Assembly: GCA_030533035.1 (NCBI GenBank)
Contig: JAUNJW010000023.1
Span: forward strand, 1 to 13,194
Length of the DNA stretch: 13,194 nt
Source: Erysipelotrichaceae bacterium
GTDB lineage: Bacteria; Bacillota_I; Bacilli_A; Erysipelotrichales; Erysipelotrichaceae
Direction of reading: 5' to 3'
A program made the position numbers and the translations under genes. The stretch's first letter is position 1; each line of letters opens with the position of its first letter. Of the stretch, positions 1 through 12,783 are shown in pieces. The notes below the pieces were generated by a model. The model searched no databases, was not told the origin of the DNA, and saw nothing but the letters and a program-made list of their open reading frames with translations.

Positions 1-1068
1 GCGGTAATGCTGGACGCCCTGGTATTCAATGCCGGTTTTCAGGGAAGGAATATACATGTCCAGGCTCTGCAGGTCCAGCCATTCGGGCCGGTACTGGTAC
101 AGGGTATCGGGATATTTCCTGCGGACTGTCTGAAATAAAGAGAGTTCATGTTTCCATCTGGGTTTGATGATTCCCTTTTCCGTCAGTTCCGTGCGGATTC
201 TTGTCCGCTCCAGTTTCCAGTCTGTTTTATACCCGTCCTTTTCCTCATACATTGAAAGGTCGGTATACCACCACTGGAAAACAGGCATGATATAGCGGAT
301 CAGATTCTCGAAAAACTCCAGTTCGCTTTTAAAATATCCTTTTTCAAGAATGTCGGCGATATTCCTTCTGACCATGACTGTTTTGACAGGGTTATAGAAA
401 AAAGGCAGCGCTCCCTGGTAGACGGCGGTTCTGTCCGGCAGATACGGCGAACGAAGGACAATGCCGTTTTCCTGAAGATGGTTCTGGTACCAGGGCAGTG
501 AATAATCATACAGGCTGTAGCCGCCGCAGAAATCTTCCGATCCGCCGCCGTAGACAAGGTGGAACATGAGCAGGACGTCCTCCATGTTCTCTTTGTCAAA
601 GACAGCCAGATAGCGCAGCTGTTCCTCATCCGGGAAAAGATTCTGGATTGGCAGGAACACCCTTGCCCTTCTGCATACTTCACTGATGACAAAGAACTGC
701 GAGGCAAAGCTTTCCGGAAAGATGAAACAGGCGTCACGGTCGGTGTCGAATTCTTCAAACTGACGCATGAATTCCCTGACATAGGGATTCATTTCCACCG
801 GTCCGGAAGATTCAAGAATCTTCATGGTTTCATAGCGGTAAGGCAGATCGGAAAGAGAGAACTGGATCAGGAATTTATCATAATCGTTTTCGATATACTC
901 TTCCCTGACCTCTTCAAACTCCTCCCTGTATTTTTCATGTTCCTCCAGCAGTGCTTCCAGGGTGGTGAACGTTGTCATTTCATGATATTTCAGGTGGCGC
1001 TGCCACAGCATGTTCAGACGCTCAAAGTCATACTGATTGTCTGGTTTTTCATGAACCGGATAAGTCAT
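1..1068 (-). CDS. PD-(D/E)XK nuclease-like protein, 3' end outside the window
   Basis: The frame is open for 356 codons from ATG at 1068 to the window edge, so the C-terminus is missing. AGGGAGG (1085-1079) lies 10 bases before this ATG. An in-frame ATG seven codons upstream would bury that site, so I prefer 1068. Residues 1-300 are mostly charged helix with several Tyr/Trp-rich patches, and I recognise no family there. The last visible stretch resembles the core of PD-(D/E)XK (Vsr/DUF559-like) nucleases: a helix with E308, then a strand ending SLDMYIP with D337, then GIEYQGVQH with E348-x-Q350. Those would be the metal-binding acidic residues. There is no signal peptide and no membrane segment. 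The gene is divergent from pyruvate kinase and no partner is visible. The role is unknown: it may cut or repair DNA, or be a domesticated nuclease. The frame is certain; the nuclease reading rests on a short motif at the truncated end. Confidence 0.7.
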   Translation of the reverse strand, partial: MTYPVHEKPDNQYDFERLNMLWQRHLKYHEMTTFTTLEALLEEHEKYREEFEEVREEYIENDYDKFLIQFSLSDLPYRYETMKILESSGPVEMNPYVREFMRQFEEFDTDRDACFIFPESFASQFFVISEVCRRARVFLPIQNLFPDEEQLRYLAVFDKENMEDVLLMFHLVYGGGSEDFCGGYSLYDYSLPWYQNHLQENGIVLRSPYLPDRTAVYQGALPFFYNPVKTVMVRRNIADILEKGYFKSELEFFENLIRYIMPVFQWWYTDLSMYEEKDGYKTDWKLERTRIRTELTEKGIIKPRWKHELSLFQTVRRKYPDTLYQYRPEWLDLQSLDMYIPSLKTGIEYQGVQHYR

Positions 1069-2801: not shown

Positions 2802-3545
2802 TTATTTCAGTTCTTCGAGAAACCGGCCCAGCGCCTCCATGGCTTTGTCGAGATGCCGGCGGTAGATATGGTCGTCATCTTCAATGACTGTTAAGCGCGC
2901 GTCCGCGTATTTCTCTGCCGCATCCACGGAATACTGCACAGGAACGGTCGGATCATCGGCGCCATGCACCAGCAGGACTGGTTTATTAAAACGGCGGATG
3001 GCGTCCTCTTCATGAATCATCTGAGCAGTGTGGAAGTAATTGCCGTCCAGCGGATTGCCCTTGAACTCCAGTGTGTCCGGAATATTGTCCGGATCAAATT
3101 CAATGCCCAGCAGCCTGCCCTTCCTGGCGCCGTCTGTAATGACAATCGCCGGTGACATCGGGATGATGGCTTTGATCTCCTCTGCCTTCATTCCGGCCAG
3201 CAGGATTGTCAGCAGTCCGCCCTGGGAATGGCCGCACAGGATGATGTCCGTGACAAAATCCAGTTTCTTTGCGTAATCAATGACAGCGAGTCCCTGGGAC
3301 ATCCACTTGAACAGTGTGTGGTCCCTGAAGGAGCCTTCGCTTTTTCCGTGGCCGTAAAGATCCGCGCGCAGAACGGCATATCCTGCCGAAACTGCTGTCT
3401 TCATGGCGGCGATGATATGATCTTCCTCCATATGGCCGGTCAGCCCGTGGAAAAGAATCATCAGCGGACATTTTTCTTTTGTTTCAGGAAGGTCCAGCTT
3501 TGCGTGCACCTTCAGGCCGTCGATATCAAGGAAGAACTCTTTCAT
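2802..3545 (-). CDS. Alpha/beta hydrolase, cinnamoyl/feruloyl-esterase-like
   Basis: A 247-residue single-domain alpha/beta hydrolase without a signal peptide, so cytoplasmic. The nucleophile elbow is GHSQGG with S107. The likely acid is D197 or D198 in HGADDPTVP, and the likely base is H226 in EDDDHIY. The oxyanion region is FHGLTGH (32-38). The layout, including the lid stretch GIEFDPDNIPDTL before the acid loop, resembles the small intracellular cinnamoyl/feruloyl esterases of lactobacilli and Butyrivibrio. Those cleave hydroxycinnamate esters, but related proteins cleave other small acyl esters, so the substrate is not fixed. AGGAG lies nine bases before the ATG. The gene starts 23 bases after the amidase stop and is followed by a strong terminator, making it the last of three genes in one operon with the VUT transporter and amidase. 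The fold is certain and the substrate open. Confidence 0.9.
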   Translation of the reverse strand: MKEFFLDIDGLKVHAKLDLPETKEKCPLMILFHGLTGHMEEDHIIAAMKTAVSAGYAVLRADLYGHGKSEGSFRDHTLFKWMSQGLAVIDYAKKLDFVTDIILCGHSQGGLLTILLAGMKAEEIKAIIPMSPAIVITDGARKGRLLGIEFDPDNIPDTLEFKGNPLDGNYFHTAQMIHEEDAIRRFNKPVLLVHGADDPTVPVQYSVDAAEKYADARLTVIEDDDHIYRRHLDKAMEALGRFLEELK

Positions 3546-3568
3546 ACCGTTTTTCTCCTGTATGGATC

Positions 3569-5038
3569 TCAGTCAATCTTACGGTTGTGCGGAATATCAT
3601 AGGACCAGGGGCTGATCTGTTCATAGGTATGGGCCGCCGCCAGGACGTCCTCATCCCTGAACTTTCTGCCGATGATCTGCAGTCCCACGGGCAGTCCCTC
3701 TTCTGTCAGTCCTGCCGGGATTGAAGCCGCCGGATTGCCGGTGAAGTTTTCGAAGAAGGTTTCGCAGAAGCCGATCAGCGGCTCCACCTTCTGCCCGTTG
3801 ACCATGTCCGGTCCCTTTGTGTTGTGATCGTTCCTGTTTTTCACCGGCGGGCAGATCGTGACCGGGGAAAGGATAATGTCATAGTCTCTAAAGACGTCTT
3901 CCTGTACATCCAGGATTTCTGTTCTCCATTCGTTCATCAGGCGGAAATCCATGATGGAGCCTTTGGAAACCTGTTCATTCCACCAGATGAACTCTTCCGG
4001 AATTTCATCCCGATGGTCCTTCACAAGGTCAAAGCCCTTCCGTTTCCAGAGCTCCATGTCGCTGGCAGTGTCGAAGCAGATCGATCTGCACCAGAATTCG
4101 GCATACTCGTTCTGTGTATGCGGGAATCTGAATGTGACCGGCTCGACCGTGACACCTGCCTTTTCAAACTGCTTCGCGGCGTTTCTGACAATCTGCCTTA
4201 CCTCTTCATCGACAGTAAAGATGCCGAAGTCATCGGTATAGCCGATCCGCATGCCTCTTATGTCACGCTTCATCAGTTCCGTAAAGTCACGCTCCGGCAG
4301 CGGGACGCTGTGGGGATCACGGGGATCATAGCCGGCCATATAGTTCAGCATGATTGCCGAATCCTCGACGGTCTTTGTGATCGCGCCGTTGAAGCAGTAC
4401 GGATGGGAAGCCGCCCAGGCGTCCGGCCGGTTGACCTGGGGAACGGTGCCGACGGAATTCTTGAAACCGAAGCAGCCGCACCAGGAAGCCGGAATGCGGA
4501 TGGAACCGCCGCCGTCAGAGCCCTCGCCGATCAGGATCATGCCATCCGCCACCGCCGCGGCGCTGCCGCCGGAGGAGCCGCCGGAATTGTATCCCGGCTT
4601 AAATGGCGTTGAGGTCGGGCCGTACATGACATTGTCGGTTGTTCCCCGGAAAGCGAAGGCCGGGGCATTGGTCTTGCCTACTGCTATAGCACCCGCCTTA
4701 TGCGCCGCCGCATAGAAAGCGGAATCTTCCGGATCAACGGCAATCAGCGATTTCACGCCGCCATGGGAATTGGTCCAGCCTTTTCTGGAAGGCAGGAAAT
4801 CCTTGAGGGCAATGGGAACGCCGGCCAGCGGGCCGCAGTCCTCTCCCCTTGCCAGCCTTTCTTCCAGCAGTTTCGCCTCATGCAGGGCGTCTTCAAACTT
4901 TGTATAGGTGAACGCGTTGATGGACGCGTTTCTTGTTTTGATTCTTTCAATGAAGTATTCAACCGCCTCAGTCGGGGATACTTCTTTTCTGTTGATCAGC
5001 CTTCCCAGCTGTGCCGCCGACAGCAATTCCAGCTTCAT
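3569..5038 (-). CDS. Amidase-signature family hydrolase
   Basis: A 489-residue protein of the amidase signature (AS) family, which hydrolyses C-N amide bonds with a Ser-cisSer-Lys triad. The triad can be read as K79 (GVPIALKDF), S155 (SGGSSGGSAAA, 152-161) and nucleophile S179 (GSDGGGSIRIP, 173-183). The whole length is covered and no break is visible. It starts at an ATG that overlaps the stop of the upstream transporter gene (ATGA, 5038-5035), with GGAG seven bases before it, so translation is probably coupled. GatA, the Glu-tRNA amidotransferase subunit, is a relative. There is no gatB or gatC here, and the signature departs from the GatA form, so I read it as a free amidase. Substrates in this family range from small aliphatic or aryl amides to cyclic 6-aminohexanoate dimer. 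The target here is unknown. Co-transcription with a transporter and an esterase-like hydrolase suggests it processes an imported compound. Confidence 0.93.
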   Translation of the reverse strand: MKLELLSAAQLGRLINRKEVSPTEAVEYFIERIKTRNASINAFTYTKFEDALHEAKLLEERLARGEDCGPLAGVPIALKDFLPSRKGWTNSHGGVKSLIAVDPEDSAFYAAAHKAGAIAVGKTNAPAFAFRGTTDNVMYGPTSTPFKPGYNSGGSSGGSAAAVADGMILIGEGSDGGGSIRIPASWCGCFGFKNSVGTVPQVNRPDAWAASHPYCFNGAITKTVEDSAIMLNYMAGYDPRDPHSVPLPERDFTELMKRDIRGMRIGYTDDFGIFTVDEEVRQIVRNAAKQFEKAGVTVEPVTFRFPHTQNEYAEFWCRSICFDTASDMELWKRKGFDLVKDHRDEIPEEFIWWNEQVSKGSIMDFRLMNEWRTEILDVQEDVFRDYDIILSPVTICPPVKNRNDHNTKGPDMVNGQKVEPLIGFCETFFENFTGNPAASIPAGLTEEGLPVGLQIIGRKFRDEDVLAAAHTYEQISPWSYDIPHNRKID

Positions 5039-5793
5039 GCGTTCGCTCCGGCATGGGCTTCGCTGAGATAATCAATGTAGGATTCCCCGACATTGTCCTT
5101 TTCCCATGATTTTGAAACCCTGTAGCCAAGGGGTGAGAAAACAGCCTCGAAGGCAAGCTCGATGATCATCGAGGTGATGGAGCAGATCAGCACCTGCGTC
5201 CATGTCCAGCCGAAGAAGACATGGGAGACCATGGCCGAGAAAACAAAGTTGTCGACAAACTGGGCCAGGCAGGTTGAAACAAGGCTTCTCAGCGCGAATC
5301 CGCTGTACTTTCCGTTGTCGCTTCTTTCGCCGATCCACTGGTTGGCAAAGGCGTTGACGACAGAGGATGCCATCAGGGCCACGGAGGAACCCACGACGAT
5401 GTACCAGGCGCCGGCAAATGTCGCGTCGATGCCGGCATGGATCATTTCACCGACAGCCGGATCATTTGCGGCATAGTAGCCTGCCCATCTGCCCGGCGTC
5501 TGCATCAGCAGCCAGAACAGAATGGCACAGAAGACATTGACCGCCATCGCGAAGAATGAAACCCTGGCTGCAGCCCTGGCGCCGAAACGCTTGCAGATGC
5601 AGTCCATGCAGAGAAAGGATACCCAGGACAGGGCCAGACCGCAGTTCAGGCAGAAATAGTCGGACCGGTAGAGTTCCCTGCCCGCCAGCAGGTTCATCAG
5701 CACGACAGACAAAACAAAAGCAGCGATCACCATCGAGGGAATGCTGCGGAGAAGGATCGTATACTCTTTCCGTATACTCTCAAAATAACGCAT
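5035..5793 (-). CDS. VUT family transporter, probable queuosine-precursor importer
   Basis: A 252-residue membrane protein with about six hydrophobic segments (roughly 17-39, 46-68, 76-97, 124-150, 168-190 and 195-222). It belongs to the VUT/YhhQ (COG1738) family, whose studied members import 7-deazaguanine precursors such as preQ0, preQ1 or queuine for tRNA queuosine. Telltale features are the N-terminal hydrophobic segment running into NLLAGRE, the loop NQWIGERSDNGKYSG and the helix ALRSLVSTCLAQFVDNFVF with its conserved R, S, Q and D. Four cysteines cluster at 48-66, in segment 2 and just before it, and may be incidental. AAAGGAG (5809-5803) lies nine bases before the ATG and directly follows the candidate preQ1-type leader structure. 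The gene opens an operon with the amidase (4-base overlap) and the alpha/beta hydrolase. The family is well supported. The exact substrate (preQ0, preQ1, queuine or another compound) cannot be read from the sequence. Confidence 0.85.
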   Translation of the reverse strand: MRYFESIRKEYTILLRSIPSMVIAAFVLSVVLMNLLAGRELYRSDYFCLNCGLALSWVSFLCMDCICKRFGARAAARVSFFAMAVNVFCAILFWLLMQTPGRWAGYYAANDPAVGEMIHAGIDATFAGAWYIVVGSSVALMASSVVNAFANQWIGERSDNGKYSGFALRSLVSTCLAQFVDNFVFSAMVSHVFFGWTWTQVLICSITSMIIELAFEAVFSPLGYRVSKSWEKDNVGESYIDYLSEAHAGANA

Positions 5794-5928: not shown

Positions 5929-5966
5929 GAAAAAAAGAAGGGAAAGGCGCTTCACCTTTCCCTTCT
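5929..5966 (-). terminator. Rho-independent terminator of the isomerase/flavoprotein operon
   Basis: On the minus strand a 12-bp perfect stem (5966-5955 with 5947-5936), a 7-base loop and seven T (5936-5930). It lies 19 bases past the stop of the Fe-S flavoprotein gene and separates that operon from the VUT promoter. Confidence 0.93.
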
Positions 5967-5985
5967 TTCATCATTTCTGAAAAGC

Positions 5986-8790
5986 TTATTTTTTGACGAT
6001 CTTGATGGCGTCCTTGATCAGGTTGCCCGCGATCTTTGCGCCGCGCTTGGCCGCGTAGGCGCCGACATACGGGAACTTGTCCTCGCATCTGACCATCTTG
6101 GAAGCGCCCGGCAGGTCTCTTTCCAGATGGATCGCGTCGAATTCGCATCTCGTTGTGCAAAGACCGCAACCGATGCAGCGGTTGAGGTCAACGACAGTAC
6201 GCCCGCAGGACAGGCATCTGCCGGCTTCCTTCTTCACCTGCTCGTCGGTGAGCGGCAGTCTGGTGTCGGAGAATGTAGTCTTGGGTGCGACGCCGGTTGT
6301 GCCCGGGATCTGTCTGCCGGCATTGTCATAGCCGTGGATGACGATTTCGTCCTTGTTGAGTTCGATGAACTGGCGGAGGTCTCTGTTGATTGTCAGTGAC
6401 TGGCCGTCATGGACATGTCTGTGCATGGATTCGCAGCCCTGTCTGCCGTCCGCGATCGCGTCGATGGCAAACTTCGCGCCGTGTCCGATATCACCGCCGA
6501 CGAAGATGTCGGGATCCGCAGTCTGGAATGTAACCGGATCATAGATGACTGTGCCGTTGGGTCTCAGCTCAACCTTTGTGTCCTTGAGCAGACCGCCCCA
6601 GACAGCGGACTGGCCGATGGCCTGCAGAACATTTTCACATTCGATGGTGATTGTCTCGTTTTCATCATATTCAGGCGCGAATTTATGATTCTCATCATAG
6701 ACTCTTGTGCACTTCTTGAATACAACTGCTGTAACTTTTCCGTTCTTTGTGAGGATTTCCTTCGGGCCCCAGCCGTTGAGGATTTCGATGCCTTCTTCTC
6801 TGGCTTCCGCGACTTCGTCAGCTGCCGCCGGCATTTCATCCGCGCCCTCTAAGCAGAGCATTGTGACCTTGCCGTTGGTTGTGCGCACAGCGGTTCTTGC
6901 GACGTCGACCGCGACGTTGCCGCCGCCGATGACAACCGCGTCACCATGGAGTTTAACAGTATTGTCGAGATTGACTCTCTTCAGGAAGCTGACGCCGGAT
7001 TCAACGCCTTTTGCATCTTCGCCCGGCACGCCGGCGCTTCTGCCGCCCTGCAGACCGATGGCGAGATAGAATGCCTTGTAGCCCTGCTCCTTCAGCTGGC
7101 TGATTGTGACGTCTTTGCCGATTTCAACGCCGGTTCTGAATTCAACGCCCATCGTCTTCAGGACATCGATTTCCGCTTCGAGAACGCTCTTTTCCAGGCG
7201 GAAGTTCGGGATGCCGAGGGTTAACATGCCGCCGAGTCTGTCTTCTTTTTCAAAGACGGTGACGTCATAGCCCTTTGCCCGCAGATAATAAGCGGCGCTC
7301 ATGCCGGCCGGACCGGCACCGATGACAGCCATCTTATAGTCTTCGCCCCACATCTTTCCTTCGTCATTTTCACAGACGGGAATGTAGCGCATGTCAGCGT
7401 CAAGTTCCTTGGCGGCGATTGCCTTCTTGATTTCATCAATGGCAACCGGCGCGTCGATCATGCCTCTGGTGCAGGCGTCTTCACATCTGCGGTTGCAGAC
7501 GGCGCCGCAGACAGCCGGGAACGGGTTGTCCTGCTTGATGAGCTTAAGGGCGTCCATCCAGCGGCCTTCCTTCGCCATCTTGACATAGCCCTGAACGGCC
7601 AGGTGGGCCGGGCAGGCAGTCTTGCAGGGAGAGGTTCCTGTTTCATAGCAGTTGATCTTGGAGTCTTCACGGTAGTTGGGATTCCACTTTGTGGCCGGCC
7701 ATGCCTTGCCGTCGGGCAGTTCGGAAACAGGATATTTCACCTCGCCGTTAATTGTGCAGAGCTTCTGGCCGAGCTTGGCGGCGCCGACCGGGCAGACCTC
7801 GACGCACTTGCCGCAGGCCACGCACTTTTCAGCCTCGACGTGGGCACGGTAAGCGGAACGGGACATGTTCGGTGTGTTGTAGAGCTGGGATGTACGGATC
7901 GCGTTGCAGACGCCGGGAGCGCAGTTGCAGATGCCGACGATCTTCTCTTCGCCGTCGATGTTGGTAATCTGGTGGACGAAACCATGGCGTTCGGATCTCT
8001 CGAAGATTTCCATGGCTTCTTCGTAAGTGATGTAACGGCCGGTGCCGCGGTTGACACAGTATTCCGCCATGTCGCCGACGCCGACGCAGAATTCACCGTT
8101 GATTTCACCGGAGCCTTCGCCTCTCATGGTCTGCTGTTTGCGGCAGGTGCACTGGCCGACGGAGTACTTGTCATACTTGCTGAGCCAGTGGGAGATGTGT
8201 TCAACCGGTACGGATCTGTTTTCATGGGCGATTGCCTTTTCAACCGGGATGACATGCATGCCGACGCCGTCGCCGCCCAGCGGGATCATCTGGGTAATGC
8301 CTTCCAGCGGCATCTGGGTCATCAGGTTGAAGAACGTAGCCAGTTCAGGATGTTCTTCGGTCAGCCTGTCATTCATCATCATGAATTCAGCGATGCCCGG
8401 CACGAAGATCGGCACGTCATACTGCATATGGCCGTCTTCATTTTCACGGTTGGATTCCAGAACGCCGATCCAGAGAAGATGGTCGATCATCTTCATGGTG
8501 TCTTCCATGGACATGCCGTTCATCTCGGCGAGCTTCTCCGCGTCATAGTTGACACGGCACTTTTTGAAGCTCAGCAGGAACTTCGCTTCTTCCTTGGTCA
8601 AAACAGCGTCCAGAGCCCAGTATTCCGGGTCGTCTGTCTTCATTGTGTTGGTATATTTGACAAGATAGCGGTCGGTAATCATGGTACCGAGCTTAAGGAT
8701 CAGCTTTTCCTTTTCCTTGTCGGGGGCAGTATAGTCGGGCGCCTGTTTAAAGTCATCGGCATTGACCATTCTGTTGAGCTGGTCTTTCAT
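5986..8790 (-). CDS. Multi-cluster Fe-S, FAD and NAD(P)-binding oxidoreductase (GltD-like core)
   Basis: A 934-residue cytoplasmic electron-transfer protein. Residues 55-200 look like a helical, winged-helix-like segment. Residues 210-300 carry a cysteine set (C214-x-C216, C235, C245, C288-x-C290, C295) with RGTGR and EEAMEIF between. This resembles an N-terminal domain of anaerobe ferredoxin-like proteins that share CxCR ... RGTGR ... ICNC. A 4Fe-4S site follows (C323, C326, C329, C333). Residues 381-440 form the two-cluster domain of GltD and dihydropyrimidine dehydrogenase (C381, C389, C393, C428, C432, C436, C440). Next is an FAD site GAGPAG (491-496), an NAD(P) site GGGNVA (622-627) and the second FAD motif VGGDIGHG (764-771). 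The C-terminus has CxxC (859, 862) and a 4Fe-4S site (C872, C875, C878, C882). No GltB or pyrimidine catalytic domain is fused or adjacent, so it probably passes electrons from NAD(P)H to another protein or substrate. GGAGG lies seven bases before the ATG. It is co-transcribed with the isomerase-like gene, 23 bases upstream. Confidence 0.88.
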   Translation of the reverse strand: MKDQLNRMVNADDFKQAPDYTAPDKEKEKLILKLGTMITDRYLVKYTNTMKTDDPEYWALDAVLTKEEAKFLLSFKKCRVNYDAEKLAEMNGMSMEDTMKMIDHLLWIGVLESNRENEDGHMQYDVPIFVPGIAEFMMMNDRLTEEHPELATFFNLMTQMPLEGITQMIPLGGDGVGMHVIPVEKAIAHENRSVPVEHISHWLSKYDKYSVGQCTCRKQQTMRGEGSGEINGEFCVGVGDMAEYCVNRGTGRYITYEEAMEIFERSERHGFVHQITNIDGEEKIVGICNCAPGVCNAIRTSQLYNTPNMSRSAYRAHVEAEKCVACGKCVEVCPVGAAKLGQKLCTINGEVKYPVSELPDGKAWPATKWNPNYREDSKINCYETGTSPCKTACPAHLAVQGYVKMAKEGRWMDALKLIKQDNPFPAVCGAVCNRRCEDACTRGMIDAPVAIDEIKKAIAAKELDADMRYIPVCENDEGKMWGEDYKMAVIGAGPAGMSAAYYLRAKGYDVTVFEKEDRLGGMLTLGIPNFRLEKSVLEAEIDVLKTMGVEFRTGVEIGKDVTISQLKEQGYKAFYLAIGLQGGRSAGVPGEDAKGVESGVSFLKRVNLDNTVKLHGDAVVIGGGNVAVDVARTAVRTTNGKVTMLCLEGADEMPAAADEVAEAREEGIEILNGWGPKEILTKNGKVTAVVFKKCTRVYDENHKFAPEYDENETITIECENVLQAIGQSAVWGGLLKDTKVELRPNGTVIYDPVTFQTADPDIFVGGDIGHGAKFAIDAIADGRQGCESMHRHVHDGQSLTINRDLRQFIELNKDEIVIHGYDNAGRQIPGTTGVAPKTTFSDTRLPLTDEQVKKEAGRCLSCGRTVVDLNRCIGCGLCTTRCEFDAIHLERDLPGASKMVRCEDKFPYVGAYAAKRGAKIAGNLIKDAIKIVKK

Positions 8791-8813
8791 TTTATGTCCT
8801 CCTCAGTATGGGA

Positions 8814-10226
8814 TCAGAAGAATCTTCCGATCAGGTCGCGGGATGCGGCGCAGGTGTCTTCCATGTCGCCGAAGCTGATGATCTCACCGGCGTAGTAGGT
8901 GTTCTGCTTACCCTGCATTTCTTCAAGTTTGTCATACCAGCCGGCTGCGTAGTCTTCCGGAGATACATGCGGGCAGTAGTATGTTTCCTGTTCATAGAGG
9001 CGTTCCTTGACCTTGAAGCCGCACATGCGCATGTCATCGAGCATGGCGTTGATTGTGTAATCATAATCCGCGTCCTTGGAACCCATATGGTTGCGCAGCG
9101 CGTAGACACAGCACGGGCAGTTGGCGCCGAGGTCTTCCCATCTGTGATAGTAGACCATCGCGTGGCCGAGGCGTTCGGGAACCATGTTGTCGAAGATATA
9201 GCCGGAGATTGTCGGGCTTTCATCCTTTTCGAATGTGGCGATGAAGTCGACATACTTCTCATGGATGATTTTGGAGAAGAGTTCTTTTTCCTCTTCCCTG
9301 GCGTCGGCATACTGAGCGAACCAGTCGAGCGGTGTCGTGACAATCAGCTTGTCGAATTCCTCGACCCTTTCGCCGTCCTTGTCACGGACTGTGACCTTGA
9401 TCTTTCCTTCTGTGCCTTCCGCCGGTCTTTCAACTTTGACAACCTCTGTGTTCAGGTGCGCCGGGTTGATCAGCTTTTTGTTGGCAGCTTCATAGATGGA
9501 CTGGGTGCCGTCCTTCCATGTCCAGAGTCTCATGTTGACGAATTCAATGGCTGTTGTTGTGTCGAGGTATTTCATGACATAGGCAGCCGGAATCTCGTCA
9601 AAGTAGCCGTAGCCGAAGGAGGTGTACGGGCCGATCCAGATCTTCATGACATCTTCAACGCCGTTGATTCTGCAGAATTCATCGAACGGAAGCGCGAGAT
9701 CCTTCAGATTCGGGTTGACGCCTTCGATCGGCAGCAGCGCGTCGTCGATTCCCTTGGAAAGTCCTGAGTACTTGCCCTGGGCAACGCCGCGGTGGCCGTA
9801 GCAGTCATATCCCTTGTATTTTGTTTCCATGATTTCAACAAGCTTCTTCATCTGCTTCTTGAGTCTGAGCAGATCTCTTGTCTTCTGGATGGACGGATTC
9901 TTCTTGACGTCGAACGGATAGATTTCCCTGCCGGAGGAATCCCTGTACATACGTCTCATGTTCGGGCCGTCGTAATGGCCGACACCGCCGAATTTTTCAA
10001 CTTCGTGGACCGCGTGGTAGGTAATCGCGCCCATGATGGCACCTGTCTCGAAGCTTCTCATTTCGCCGTTGACTTCGATCTTCGGTGAATAGGACTTGCC
10101 GCCTACCTTGTTGAGCTTTTCGTAAATCTCGTAGTTCCTGTATCCCTTGAACTGCAGATACATTGCCGCAGAAATACCGGCTGGGCCGCCACCGATAATG
10201 CAGACTCTTTCGTCAATGTTTGTCAT
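8814..10226 (-). CDS. FAD-dependent polyunsaturated fatty acid (linoleate) isomerase-like protein
   Basis: A 470-residue soluble flavoprotein. It has the dinucleotide-binding motif IIGGGPAG (10-17), E36 at the end of strand 2, VGGKSYSP (41-48) and the C-terminal FAD motif YYAGEIISFG (444-453). From memory, it follows the Cutibacterium acnes polyunsaturated fatty acid isomerase (PAI, 424 residues) along most of its length. Shared stretches include TGAIMG (61-66), LPFDEF (179-184), FGYGYFDEIPAAYVMKYLD (204-222), LWTWKDGTQ (234-242), PERLGHAMVYYHRW (350-363) and the HVS-EDY-AGWY segment near 420-431. Two residues reported to hold the fatty acid in PAI, R88 and F193, appear as R92 and F229. PAI shifts a double bond of linoleate through hydride abstraction by FAD, giving a conjugated acid. 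An insert near 143-172 makes this protein longer. A GGGG-containing site lies 12 bases before the ATG. It is the first gene of a two-gene operon. Homology is strong; the true substrate may be another unsaturated acid or amine. Confidence 0.88.
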   Translation of the reverse strand: MTNIDERVCIIGGGPAGISAAMYLQFKGYRNYEIYEKLNKVGGKSYSPKIEVNGEMRSFETGAIMGAITYHAVHEVEKFGGVGHYDGPNMRRMYRDSSGREIYPFDVKKNPSIQKTRDLLRLKKQMKKLVEIMETKYKGYDCYGHRGVAQGKYSGLSKGIDDALLPIEGVNPNLKDLALPFDEFCRINGVEDVMKIWIGPYTSFGYGYFDEIPAAYVMKYLDTTTAIEFVNMRLWTWKDGTQSIYEAANKKLINPAHLNTEVVKVERPAEGTEGKIKVTVRDKDGERVEEFDKLIVTTPLDWFAQYADAREEEKELFSKIIHEKYVDFIATFEKDESPTISGYIFDNMVPERLGHAMVYYHRWEDLGANCPCCVYALRNHMGSKDADYDYTINAMLDDMRMCGFKVKERLYEQETYYCPHVSPEDYAAGWYDKLEEMQGKQNTYYAGEIISFGDMEDTCAASRDLIGRFF

Positions 10227-10465: not shown

Positions 10466-11656
10466 TTAAGGTTTTACGCTGTCGATCAGCTTCTGCAGGA
10501 CTTCTGCCGATACAGAGTCACCGCCGCGGTCTGCGTGCAGAATGCCGGCGGCAACCTTCTTCCCCTTCCGGAAAGCAAACGAGATCAATCCATGTTCATC
10601 TTCACTGCCTGAGAGCTCATCATATCCGCTGAACCTCTGTGTGAAAGCCGGATCACCCGCAGTGCTGTATTCCCTGAACAGACGGCGGGCCACGAAATCG
10701 AAGTCCGTGTCGTAATAGTACAGGTTCGTGAAGCAGTAAACAGTCTCATCCTTTTTCAGATACGCATCCTCGGTCCAGATGTAATTGTCACGGGAAAGCA
10801 GATCGCTGTAATGACGCATGGTATTGAATGTCGGAAACTGCTCACGCAGGCTTTCAATCACAAAACTGTTCATGACATATTCGGCGTCCGGATCGATGTC
10901 GGCGACAGTCATGAACGGCGGATCTTCTGAATAATCTTTCAGACTGATCCTGCCGGCATCGGAGGCATCGGCTGCCAGCATCGAAACAAACGCGGCGGCC
11001 ATCAGCGTATACATGCAGAATTTCATGATCCTGAACACTTTGAAGGCGGCTGCGTTTTTCCGCCAGTCTTTTTCATGGCTGTACGGGATGCCTTTTTCCA
11101 GCTTTGAAGCTTCGATGAAAAGCCTGACACATTCAGTCACACTGCCAATCACGCTGACAACGGCAAACGGGATGGTTGCCAGGACAATCCATGAGCCGGT
11201 CTGGATCATCAGCTGCATGAAGTGTGAAGACACCAGAAATCCATAAAACAGCAGCGGCACACAGGCTCTTAAAAGCTGCACAAATCTGGCGCGGGCCAGA
11301 TCCATCCGGATCAGTGATTCAGTTTCAGGATCGGTGTGCAGCTCGCATGTGCCCGCATGGGCAAACAGCAGATACTGGCGGTGAGAACCCAGCAGCTGCC
11401 AGCCTGCCTCTTCCAGAAAGCCGGTCTTATTCTCAAGATTATCCTGATCAAGAATTGCGTCAGTATTGAGAATATAGGCGGACGGTTCAAACCGGTAGGT
11501 CATTGTTTGCGGCTCACCGGTCACAAACTGCGCACAGAGAGCCCCGATGCCGTTTTCCCTGAGGAAGAGTCCTTTTGCGGCACAGTCCCTGAACCAGGTT
11601 TCAAGCCCGGCGATGTCATATGACGGACACGGCAGCATCCTTCTGACGATACTCAT
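10466..11656 (-). CDS. DUF2812 membrane protein, PadR-linked
   Basis: A 396-residue protein with an N-terminal DUF2812-type region (about 10-115): YDIAGLETWFRDCAAKGLFL, then YRFEPSA, then FLEEAGWQLLGSHRQYLLF. Three hydrophobic segments follow (about 124-147, 154-178 and 207-229), and residues 230-396 form a soluble tail that three helices would place outside the cell if the N-terminus is inside. I chose ATG at 11656, with GGAG five bases upstream and the family-like sequence starting right after it. A longer frame would need the TTG at 11683. The gene overlaps the end of padR by 41 bases, so the two are surely co-transcribed. DUF2812 genes commonly sit beside PadR regulators; their biochemical role is unknown, with envelope stress or membrane sensing often guessed. 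The extracytoplasmic tail (Tyr/Phe-rich, around NLYYYDTDFDFVARRLF) is not one I recognise and may be specific to this group. Confidence 0.85.
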   Translation of the reverse strand: MSIVRRMLPCPSYDIAGLETWFRDCAAKGLFLRENGIGALCAQFVTGEPQTMTYRFEPSAYILNTDAILDQDNLENKTGFLEEAGWQLLGSHRQYLLFAHAGTCELHTDPETESLIRMDLARARFVQLLRACVPLLFYGFLVSSHFMQLMIQTGSWIVLATIPFAVVSVIGSVTECVRLFIEASKLEKGIPYSHEKDWRKNAAAFKVFRIMKFCMYTLMAAAFVSMLAADASDAGRISLKDYSEDPPFMTVADIDPDAEYVMNSFVIESLREQFPTFNTMRHYSDLLSRDNYIWTEDAYLKKDETVYCFTNLYYYDTDFDFVARRLFREYSTAGDPAFTQRFSGYDELSGSEDEHGLISFAFRKGKKVAAGILHADRGGDSVSAEVLQKLIDSVKP

Positions 11657-11966
11657 AGGTCTCCATCCTTTTTGCGTCTTCAAGGCATAAGAGAAGACGT
11701 TCTTTTTCCTGCTGATACACCTGTTTTCCAGACTCCGTCAGCTTATAGTTTCTTTTACGGCCGCCGGCAGGTGTTTCTTCGATGATTCCTTCTTTGAGGA
11801 ATTTGGAAAGAATTGTATAAAGCGTCGCCGGGCCGATCTGGATTCTCGACTCTGTCAGGGCATCAATAGCCGCGGCGATATCCTGCCCGCACATCTCCTC
11901 TTTTGAAAGAGCCATCAGGATGTAAAACATGGAATCCGTCAGCACCTGCATTGATTTTCTGGGCAT
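11616..11966 (-). CDS. PadR family transcriptional regulator
   Basis: A 116-residue winged-helix repressor of the short PadR type (PadR-s2-like, with only a brief C-terminal helix for dimerisation). Visible family features are LTDSMFYILMAL (9-20), GQDI (27-30), the recognition-helix region IGPATLYTILSKFLKEGII (44-62) and the wing GGRKRNYKLTESG (68-80). AAGGAGG (11977-11971) lies four bases before the ATG. PadR proteins usually repress their own gene and the linked target and release DNA on binding a small molecule. Here the target is most simply the overlapping DUF2812 gene. Two nearly identical palindromes sit over the proposed padR promoter, which supports autoregulation. The inducer cannot be inferred from the sequence. 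Confidence 0.93.
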   Translation of the reverse strand: MPRKSMQVLTDSMFYILMALSKEEMCGQDIAAAIDALTESRIQIGPATLYTILSKFLKEGIIEETPAGGRKRNYKLTESGKQVYQQEKERLLLCLEDAKRMETYEYRQKDAAVSVI

Positions 11967-12141: not shown

Positions 12142-12783
12142 ATGGATTACTATATTCCCGGATGCGATGTCAGAAGAAATCATCCCGAAGCAGTGAGAAA
12201 AATGGAAAAATGGATGAATGATCACGGTGTTCTTTCCGCGGCCTGCTGCCGGAAGGATCTCTCCTTTCTCAAAGAAGGAGACATGATTGTTCAGAACTGC
12301 ACTTTATGTGAGCTGATGTTAAGGGAAAGAGTTCCCGGAACGCCTTTCGTCAGTTTGTGGGAATATCTGGATCAGACAGACTTTGAATGGCCTGACTGGC
12401 AGGGAAAAGATCTCACCCTGCAGGACTGCCGGCGGACTGTAAACAACATCCATCTGCAGAACGCGGTGCGTTCCGTATTAAGCAAAATGAATATCCGGAT
12501 TGTTGAAATGGAAGAAAACCGTGAGAAATCACAATACTGCGGCGTCTGGTACAACAATCCCCCTGCCCCCGACTGTGTGCAGCTCGCGCCTGTCACATTT
12601 GCGAAGCTGGAAGAACAGAGGGTTCTTCTTTCAAAAGAGGAACAGGAAGAAAAGATGAAGGAATGGGTGAAGCAGTACCGAACAGATGAAATTGCCGTTT
12701 ACTGCAACGGCTGTGAAAAAGGCATCCGTCTGGGCGGCGGAAAGCCCCTGCATCTGATTGAACTGGTTACCCGTGATCTTTGA
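12142..12783 (+). CDS. Small HdrB-like protein with two CCG-type cysteine motifs
   Basis: A 213-residue soluble protein with ten cysteines. The first half fits the CCG (cysteine-rich) pattern C-xn-CC-xn-CxxC: C8 in YYIPGCD, C35-C36 in AACCRK, and C53/C56 in NCTLC. The second half repeats it in degenerate form: C96, then YCG (C133), then C188/C191 in CNGC; C145 is extra. CCG domains in HdrB, GlpC and LutA relatives bind unusual 4Fe-4S clusters or active-site thiols in redox enzymes. Those proteins are usually longer, near 240-300 residues, so this is a compact version. There is no signal peptide. The start is set by AGGG nine bases before the ATG. The gene is followed after 14 bases by a PhzF-family gene on the same strand. 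No HdrA, HdrC or flavoprotein partner lies next to it. The cysteine pattern is clear; family membership is probable; substrate and partner are unknown. Confidence 0.75.
   Translation: MDYYIPGCDVRRNHPEAVRKMEKWMNDHGVLSAACCRKDLSFLKEGDMIVQNCTLCELMLRERVPGTPFVSLWEYLDQTDFEWPDWQGKDLTLQDCRRTVNNIHLQNAVRSVLSKMNIRIVEMEENREKSQYCGVWYNNPPAPDCVQLAPVTFAKLEEQRVLLSKEEQEEKMKEWVKQYRTDEIAVYCNGCEKGIRLGGGKPLHLIELVTRDL

Follow-up and report, generated by a model that had tools for sequence, protein, structure and literature searches.

A stretch of 13,194 nucleotides from an Erysipelotrichaceae bacterium (GenBank assembly GCA_030533035.1, contig JAUNJW010000023.1; hereafter the window) carries, on its minus strand, a gene for a homologue of the C. 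acnes polyunsaturated fatty acid isomerase (PAI), followed by a gene for a large iron–sulfur flavoprotein reductase, which we call RED. With moderate confidence, we propose that both genes are part of a set for the anaerobic biohydrogenation of unsaturated fatty acids, whose substrate would be isomerised and then reduced with NAD(P)H. The proposal rests on homology, residue conservation, adjacency and co-occurrence. The core features of the locus are the following:

8814-10226, minus strand: isomerase gene, encoding a PAI-like FAD isomerase of 470 amino acids (open reading frame, homology and alignment).
8798-8803, minus strand: AGGAGG, the likely ribosome-binding site of RED, inside the 23-nucleotide intergenic gap.
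5986-8790, minus strand: RED gene, encoding a 934-amino-acid Fe-S/FAD reductase (open reading frame, domain scan and fold search).
5934-5968, strand not assigned: inverted repeat of 14 pairs, a possible operon end, 17 nucleotides past the RED stop codon.

Both open reading frames of the two-gene module outlined in the preliminary description are thus present on the minus strand, and the 23 nucleotides that separate them hold the AGGAGG motif 7 nucleotides ahead of the RED ATG. The isomerase and RED are probably carried on one transcript. The inverted repeat, which was scored on the plus strand only, is weak evidence for an operon end, since terminator-like sites in the region (five found, against a shuffle mean of 6.3) were not enriched.

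The product of the first gene is a candidate linoleate-isomerase-like enzyme. It aligned with C. acnes PAI (2b9w) over nearly its full length, in two pieces, with 368 bits and an E value of 4.6e-109, and 964 isomerase relatives were found at 1e-30. Residues R88, F168 and F193 of 2b9w, which we take to be substrate-site residues, correspond to R92, F204 and F229 of the window protein; R92 and F229 were present in all 94 aligned sequences (the window protein and 93 relatives), and F204 in 93 of them. In line with these results, the PAI match and the R92/F229 equivalence put forward in the preliminary description were both borne out, and the F168 equivalent proved to be kept as well. The two proteins also share a dinucleotide-binding N terminus. 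They differ in that the window protein has about 24 extra residues (window 147-174), common to its relatives and absent from C. acnes PAI between residues 134 and 139, adjoins RED, and belongs to a host lineage found largely in the ruminant gut. Gut bacterial linoleate isomerases were reportedly also the subject of a Nature paper in 2023.

These extra residues are one of the points in favour of a different substrate for the isomerase homologue, such as a terpenoid or another polyene; further, the names given to its relatives by their sources are generic (FAD-dependent oxidoreductase), and cyclopiazonate dehydrogenase (9vex) also matched the protein, weakly, at 28.5 bits. We consider this explanation quite unlikely, given the retention of R92 and F229 throughout the alignment and the gene neighbourhoods of a sister clade, whose isomerases are 54-58% identical to that of the window: in several of its loci the isomerase gene is divergent from genes for an AMP-dependent acyl ligase, an acyl carrier protein and an acyl-ACP thioesterase.

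The association of the isomerase with RED was followed in the GTDB family of the window (272 genomes), with thresholds of 1e-20 for the isomerase and 1e-150 for RED. The isomerase was detected in 61 genomes and RED in 110. All but two of the isomerase-positive genomes carried RED (59 of 61, the exceptions being G131 and G232), compared to 51 of the 211 isomerase-negative ones. At the level of gene order, we analysed 80 named loci, the best 80 of 160 isomerase relatives from a scan of species genomes. The fetched flank contained RED in 48 of these loci; in 46 of the 48 it was downstream on the isomerase's strand, and in 47 of the 80 the distance between RED and the isomerase was at most 3 kb. 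Conservation of the pair across related genomes, named beforehand as one of the points on which the two-gene idea could fall, was therefore observed. Where at least 5 kb of sequence was available on both sides, RED was present in 28 of 44 loci; among the 32 of 80 loci without RED, 10 had less than 3 kb of downstream sequence.

The arrangement of the pair varied. Besides the isomerase-RED order, we found isomerase-HypB-HypA-RED, isomerase-HypB-HypB-RED-HypA, HypB-isomerase-HypB-RED-HypA, divergent arrangements and the sister-clade cluster. A quick tree of 86 RED proteins, a sample enriched for isomerase-adjacent RED (n=47), showed at least six changes in adjacency to the isomerase.

Several observations weigh against a shared function of the two proteins in biohydrogenation. 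The 80 loci were picked by their likeness to the window and are interrelated, so the locus fractions are not to be taken as rates. RED was missing from the fetched flank of 21 of the 80 loci despite at least 5 kb of downstream sequence. Genus g51 has an isomerase with 82-84% identity to that of the window, yet RED is encoded elsewhere in the genome; in the three g51 RED loci fetched, two HypB genes precede RED and HypA follows it. The Fisher P values for co-occurrence ignore shared ancestry, many of the surveyed genomes are incomplete (that of the window, G000, is 83.95% complete), and 51 genomes of the family have RED in the absence of the isomerase. Finally, the rows of the full-length fold search were scarcely informative on RED residues 1-384, for which reason no fatty-acid catalytic site was identified in this protein.

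Operon-type spacing and repeated adjacency could also be read as signs that RED supplies electrons to the isomerase flavin, for its activation or reset. PAI-type isomerisation is redox-neutral. When expressed in E. coli and Lactococcus with no partner, C. acnes PAI converted 30-50% of the linoleate, according to the available part of PMC2885616. On both grounds, RED is dispensable for isomerisation, and its occurrence without PAI in 51 genomes of the family indicates that it is not a dedicated flavin-resetting partner. Nothing was found that favours the flavin-resetting variant offered in the preliminary description, and we regard it as very unlikely. The broader suggestion that RED is dedicated to the isomerase was not upheld either, in view of the same 51 genomes and of the link between RED and HypA/HypB described below.

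A Pfam scan of RED returned Fer4, Fer4_20 and Pyr_redox_2 domains, and its architecture can be summarised as follows:

8401-8790, minus strand: RED residues 1-130, containing a winged-helix-like segment (model of the RED N terminus).
7861-8400, minus strand: RED residues 131-310, a cysteine domain with invariant C214, C216, C235, H273, C288, C290 and C295.
7756-7845, minus strand: RED residues 316-345, a ferredoxin-type 4Fe-4S motif (C323, C326, C329, C333).
6391-7653, minus strand: RED residues 380-800, a GltD/NfnA-like module with Fer4_20 and Pyr_redox_2.
6145-6216, minus strand: RED residues 859-882, with invariant C859, C862, C872, C875, C878 and C882.

The fold match spanned the whole GltD/NfnA-like module, and the C-terminal cysteines 859-882 are probable Fe-S ligands. 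Over residues 1-378, the only Pfam models matched were of the ferredoxin type, at approximately residues 308-351 (E up to 1), and in the window's protein no Pfam model matched the cysteine domain (131-310) itself. When the N terminus was modelled alone, the predicted structure gave winged-helix matches over approximately residues 16-129. The search barely probed residues 130-310, and we do not claim a new fold. Compared to the NfnA/StnA subunits of electron-bifurcating transhydrogenases (9bov, 8oh5, 9n5u, 9n5v), RED has the winged-helix-like segment and the cysteine-rich domain fused in front. No Nfn/Stn B or C subunit was present among the nine open reading frames of the window that were scanned, a search that did not extend to the remainder of the genome.

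The RED family is large, with 7988 proteins matching the first 375 residues of RED at 1e-10 (all candidates scored), and the genome of the window itself encodes at least two paralogues. One of these (locus L006, contig C351), which adjoins hypA, is broken by a single in-frame TGA, where four relatives read through with no stop. Selenocysteine at this position was considered and is unsupported, as none of the four relatives has a cysteine there. Locus L242 encodes a stand-alone protein of 387 amino acids resembling the N-terminal cysteine domain of RED; its neighbours are a gene for HypB and a short open reading frame similar to HypA.

A second candidate for the reductive step emerged from the sister clade, where several loci have, after the isomerase, genes for a CrtI/carotenoid-isomerase-like flavoprotein and for an FNR-type reductase that carries a 2Fe-2S domain; the remaining sister-clade loci have part of this CrtI/FNR/acyl set or none of it. 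The CrtI-like protein resembles CrtI and carotenoid isomerase flavoproteins in matching crtI_fam (85.8 bits) and carot_isom (75.9 bits); it differs from them in that both scores are far below the respective cut-offs of 238.1 and 586.9, and in having acyl-handling genes alongside. We presume that it is also akin to RetSat; RetSat-type enzymes saturate a polyene. In the 272 family genomes, 58 matched the CrtI-like protein at 1e-40. Close homologues (at least 51% identity and more than 500 bits) occurred in 37 of them, and the genome of the window has a 57% match over 203 residues, cut by a contig end; all 38 genomes were isomerase-positive. The other 20, at 30-35% identity only, included both isomerase-positive and isomerase-negative genomes. 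Within the genus of the window, close CrtI-like proteins were found in 32 of 39 isomerase-positive genomes and in none of the 31 isomerase-negative ones. The CrtI-FNR order recurred in seven of eight further loci, the eighth being close to a contig end.

It could thus be that the CrtI/RetSat-like flavoprotein and its FNR constitute the fatty acid reductase. In that case RED would be a general redox enzyme linked to HypA/HypB, placed next to the isomerase since the same condition requires both. The restriction of close CrtI-like proteins to isomerase-positive genomes of the family, compared to the 51 genomes with RED and no isomerase, argues for this explanation, as do the FNR-type neighbour of the CrtI-like protein and the polyene-saturating chemistry of RetSat-type enzymes. 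Nevertheless, we consider it unlikely: 23 of the 61 isomerase-positive genomes lack a close CrtI-like protein, some of which hold the PAI-RED pair (for example, G032, G059 and G065), and in the clade of the window the co-oriented neighbour of the isomerase is RED and not CrtI. Further, among the genomes of four named PAI-RED loci (L126, L167, L168 and L188), a CrtI match at 1e-30 was obtained in that of L126 only, so RED would be the reductase at hand in the other three.

The biohydrogenation route that we favour would proceed in two steps. In a C18 polyunsaturated fatty acid, the PAI-like flavoprotein would shift one double bond so that it becomes conjugated, with a product that might be trans-10,cis-12 or cis-9,trans-11; this reaction is redox-neutral and requires no partner. 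A reductase would then saturate one double bond using NAD(P)H, which would both detoxify the fatty acid and dispose of electrons. RED may accept electrons from NAD(P)H through its NfnA-like FAD module and relay them along its Fe-S clusters; on reaching the N-terminal cysteine domain, they would reduce either the fatty acid itself or an intermediate carrier. In many relatives, and probably in the genome of the window, a further protein, the CrtI/RetSat-like flavoprotein, may also act on the isomerised product together with an FNR-type reductase of its own. From the sequence data we infer the substrate, the product, the co-transcription, the electron path in RED and which of RED and the CrtI-FNR pair would reduce the fatty acid. 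The interpretation in the preliminary description stands in part: its isomerise-then-reduce idea is strengthened by the way in which the CrtI/RetSat-like flavoprotein and FNR track the isomerase. The role of RED as the fatty-acid reductase is conjectural.

In relatives of the window, HypA and one or two HypB genes (PF01155, PF02492) often flank RED; one of the HypB proteins reached 241 bits, where the TIGR00073 cut-off is 121.2, and one HypA scored 64.5 against a cut-off of 88.1. Of the 86 RED proteins on the tree, 52 had HypA or HypB no more than 3 kb away. In a phylum-wide sample, the RED N terminus was matched in 26 of 392 genomes, and when the 26 RED-type loci were retrieved with flanks of 1.5 kb, 16 had HypB beside RED. 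Among 145 sampled genomes of the family, 39 had HypB over the cut-off, and RED was present in 30 of these. The hydrogenase maturase HypD was found in seven of the nine HypB genomes without RED, whereas 31 of the 39 HypB genomes had no HypD, and 29 of those 31 carried RED. Similarly, 52 of 60 hand-chosen genomes had RED, and 46 of these 52 had HypB over the cut-off; none of the eight RED-less genomes did, one of them (G016) having a HypB match below it. The large subunit of [NiFe] hydrogenase (PF00374) gave no match in the genome of the window, and the seven matches among the 145 family genomes covered positions 1-70 of 508 only. An explanation of HypA/HypB by [NiFe] hydrogenases was rejected for most of the sampled family genomes, given the 29 HypD-less genomes in which HypB accompanies RED. 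In summary, RED is genetically linked to HypA and HypB, in a family that seldom encodes a [NiFe] hydrogenase.

Since many loci have RED, HypA and HypB and no isomerase, the neighbourhood might be neutral, with the RED-HypA-HypB set serving another reaction and the isomerase inserted beside it. The repeated changes of adjacency on the RED tree and the several arrangements make this highly improbable in our view.

The tie to HypA and HypB raises the speculative notion that RED is a nickel enzyme. In its fullest form, RED would represent a new class of NAD(P)H-driven enzymes that use nickel, or another metal delivered by HypA/HypB, loaded at the N-terminal cysteine domain by HypA and paired HypB where [NiFe] hydrogenase is mostly absent, and that reduce the conjugated fatty acid supplied by the neighbouring isomerase; we rate this combination as rather unlikely. 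Nickel dependence is treated here as a hypothesis because the RED gene of the window has no Hyp gene beside it, and HypB was not found at 1e-30 in G000, G061, G065 and G079, of which G061 and G079 are more than 90% complete; at the same threshold it was found in G015, G032, G054, G059 and G068. A P-type heavy-metal ATPase adjoins the HypB pairs of loci L209, L210, L093 and L094, a hint of metal supply, and is accompanied in L209 by a metal-sensitive repressor; in L093 and L094 the ATPase was assigned from its N-terminal motif.

With regard to the surroundings of the pair, closely packed genes for a Vut_1-type transporter, an amidase and an alpha/beta hydrolase follow RED on the same strand (2802-5793, minus strand). 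Their membership of the operon is unsupported, as the genes after RED vary among relatives. Upstream of the isomerase, a DUF2812 open reading frame overlaps that of a PadR-type regulator (10466-11966, minus strand); in the close relative L041, a gene from this DUF2812/PadR cluster is placed after RED instead. On the plus strand (12142-12783), a protein of 213 amino acids resembles part of NF045663, a dicluster-binding oxidoreductase family, with 51.1 bits against a cut-off of 530.

The bacteria that carry the pair are gut inhabitants, mostly of cattle, sheep, goats and deer. The record titles of at least 59 of the 80 named loci belong to ruminant series (25 RGIG, 30 RUG or RUI, and 4 deer), where we take RUG and RUI to be rumen series. 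Three of the loci come from named strains, with RED downstream of the isomerase by 27 nucleotides in Erysipelotrichaceae bacterium NK3D112, 1099 in Lachnospiraceae bacterium FE2018 and 283 in Porcincola intestinalis.

Butyrivibrio-type conjugated linoleate (CLA) reductase, which reduces conjugated linoleate, is an iron-containing protein of about 60 kDa for which, to our knowledge, there is no sequence. The reactions and the habitat proposed here are those of the linoleate isomerase and CLA reductase of Butyrivibrio fibrisolvens, as given in the consulted portion of PMC12254105. The gene set differs from that system in that the PAI family occurs in only 2 of 79 genomes of the GTDB genus holding L168, a metagenome-assembled genome titled Butyrivibrio sp., one match being full-length (L168) and the other a frame of 98 amino acids. 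PAI as the missing isomerase of Butyrivibrio, for which no linoleate isomerase gene was found according to the part of PMC6249431 consulted, is hence unsupported. The CLA-HY/DH/DC/ER pathway of Lactobacillus plantarum likewise leads from linoleate to conjugated and partly hydrogenated products, but it employs hydroxy and oxo fatty acids and other enzymes (PMC13365329, in part). The isomerase family, the NfnA-like module and HypA/HypB are already known; in the titles and abstract beginnings of the open-licence PMC literature surveyed, we met neither a PAI-like isomerase with a RED-type reductase or with HypA/HypB, nor the operon or the RED-HypA-HypB association.

The fatty acids found in milk and meat are shaped by biohydrogenation in the rumen, and milk fat is depressed by antilipogenic intermediates of the trans-10 type. 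Which rumen bacteria form these intermediates has yet to be established unambiguously: C. acnes alone, out of 28 species assayed, yielded them, and its ruminal abundance is very low (PMC7339423, available part). Before C. acnes AP1, no rumen strain was available (PMC11770317, likewise in part). In the main text of a 16S study of the trans-10 shift, Erysipelotrichaceae were absent and other taxa were implicated, including a Lachnospiraceae group (PMC9853040), a result that neither supports nor excludes the present candidate organisms. The repeated occurrence of an isomerase homologue near a large electron-transfer enzyme makes the gut bacteria carrying the pair candidates for an unsolved step of rumen fat chemistry.

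The locus is real, conserved and of interest, and its likely role would render a long-standing question testable: these loci supply candidates both for the organisms and for the isomerisation and reduction genes involved, along with genomes of three named strains that are ready for testing. The association of RED with HypA and HypB would indicate an unrecognised metal-dependent redox enzyme, and if the fullest form of the nickel-enzyme reading were true, RED would be a long-sought biohydrogenation reductase in a rumen guild.

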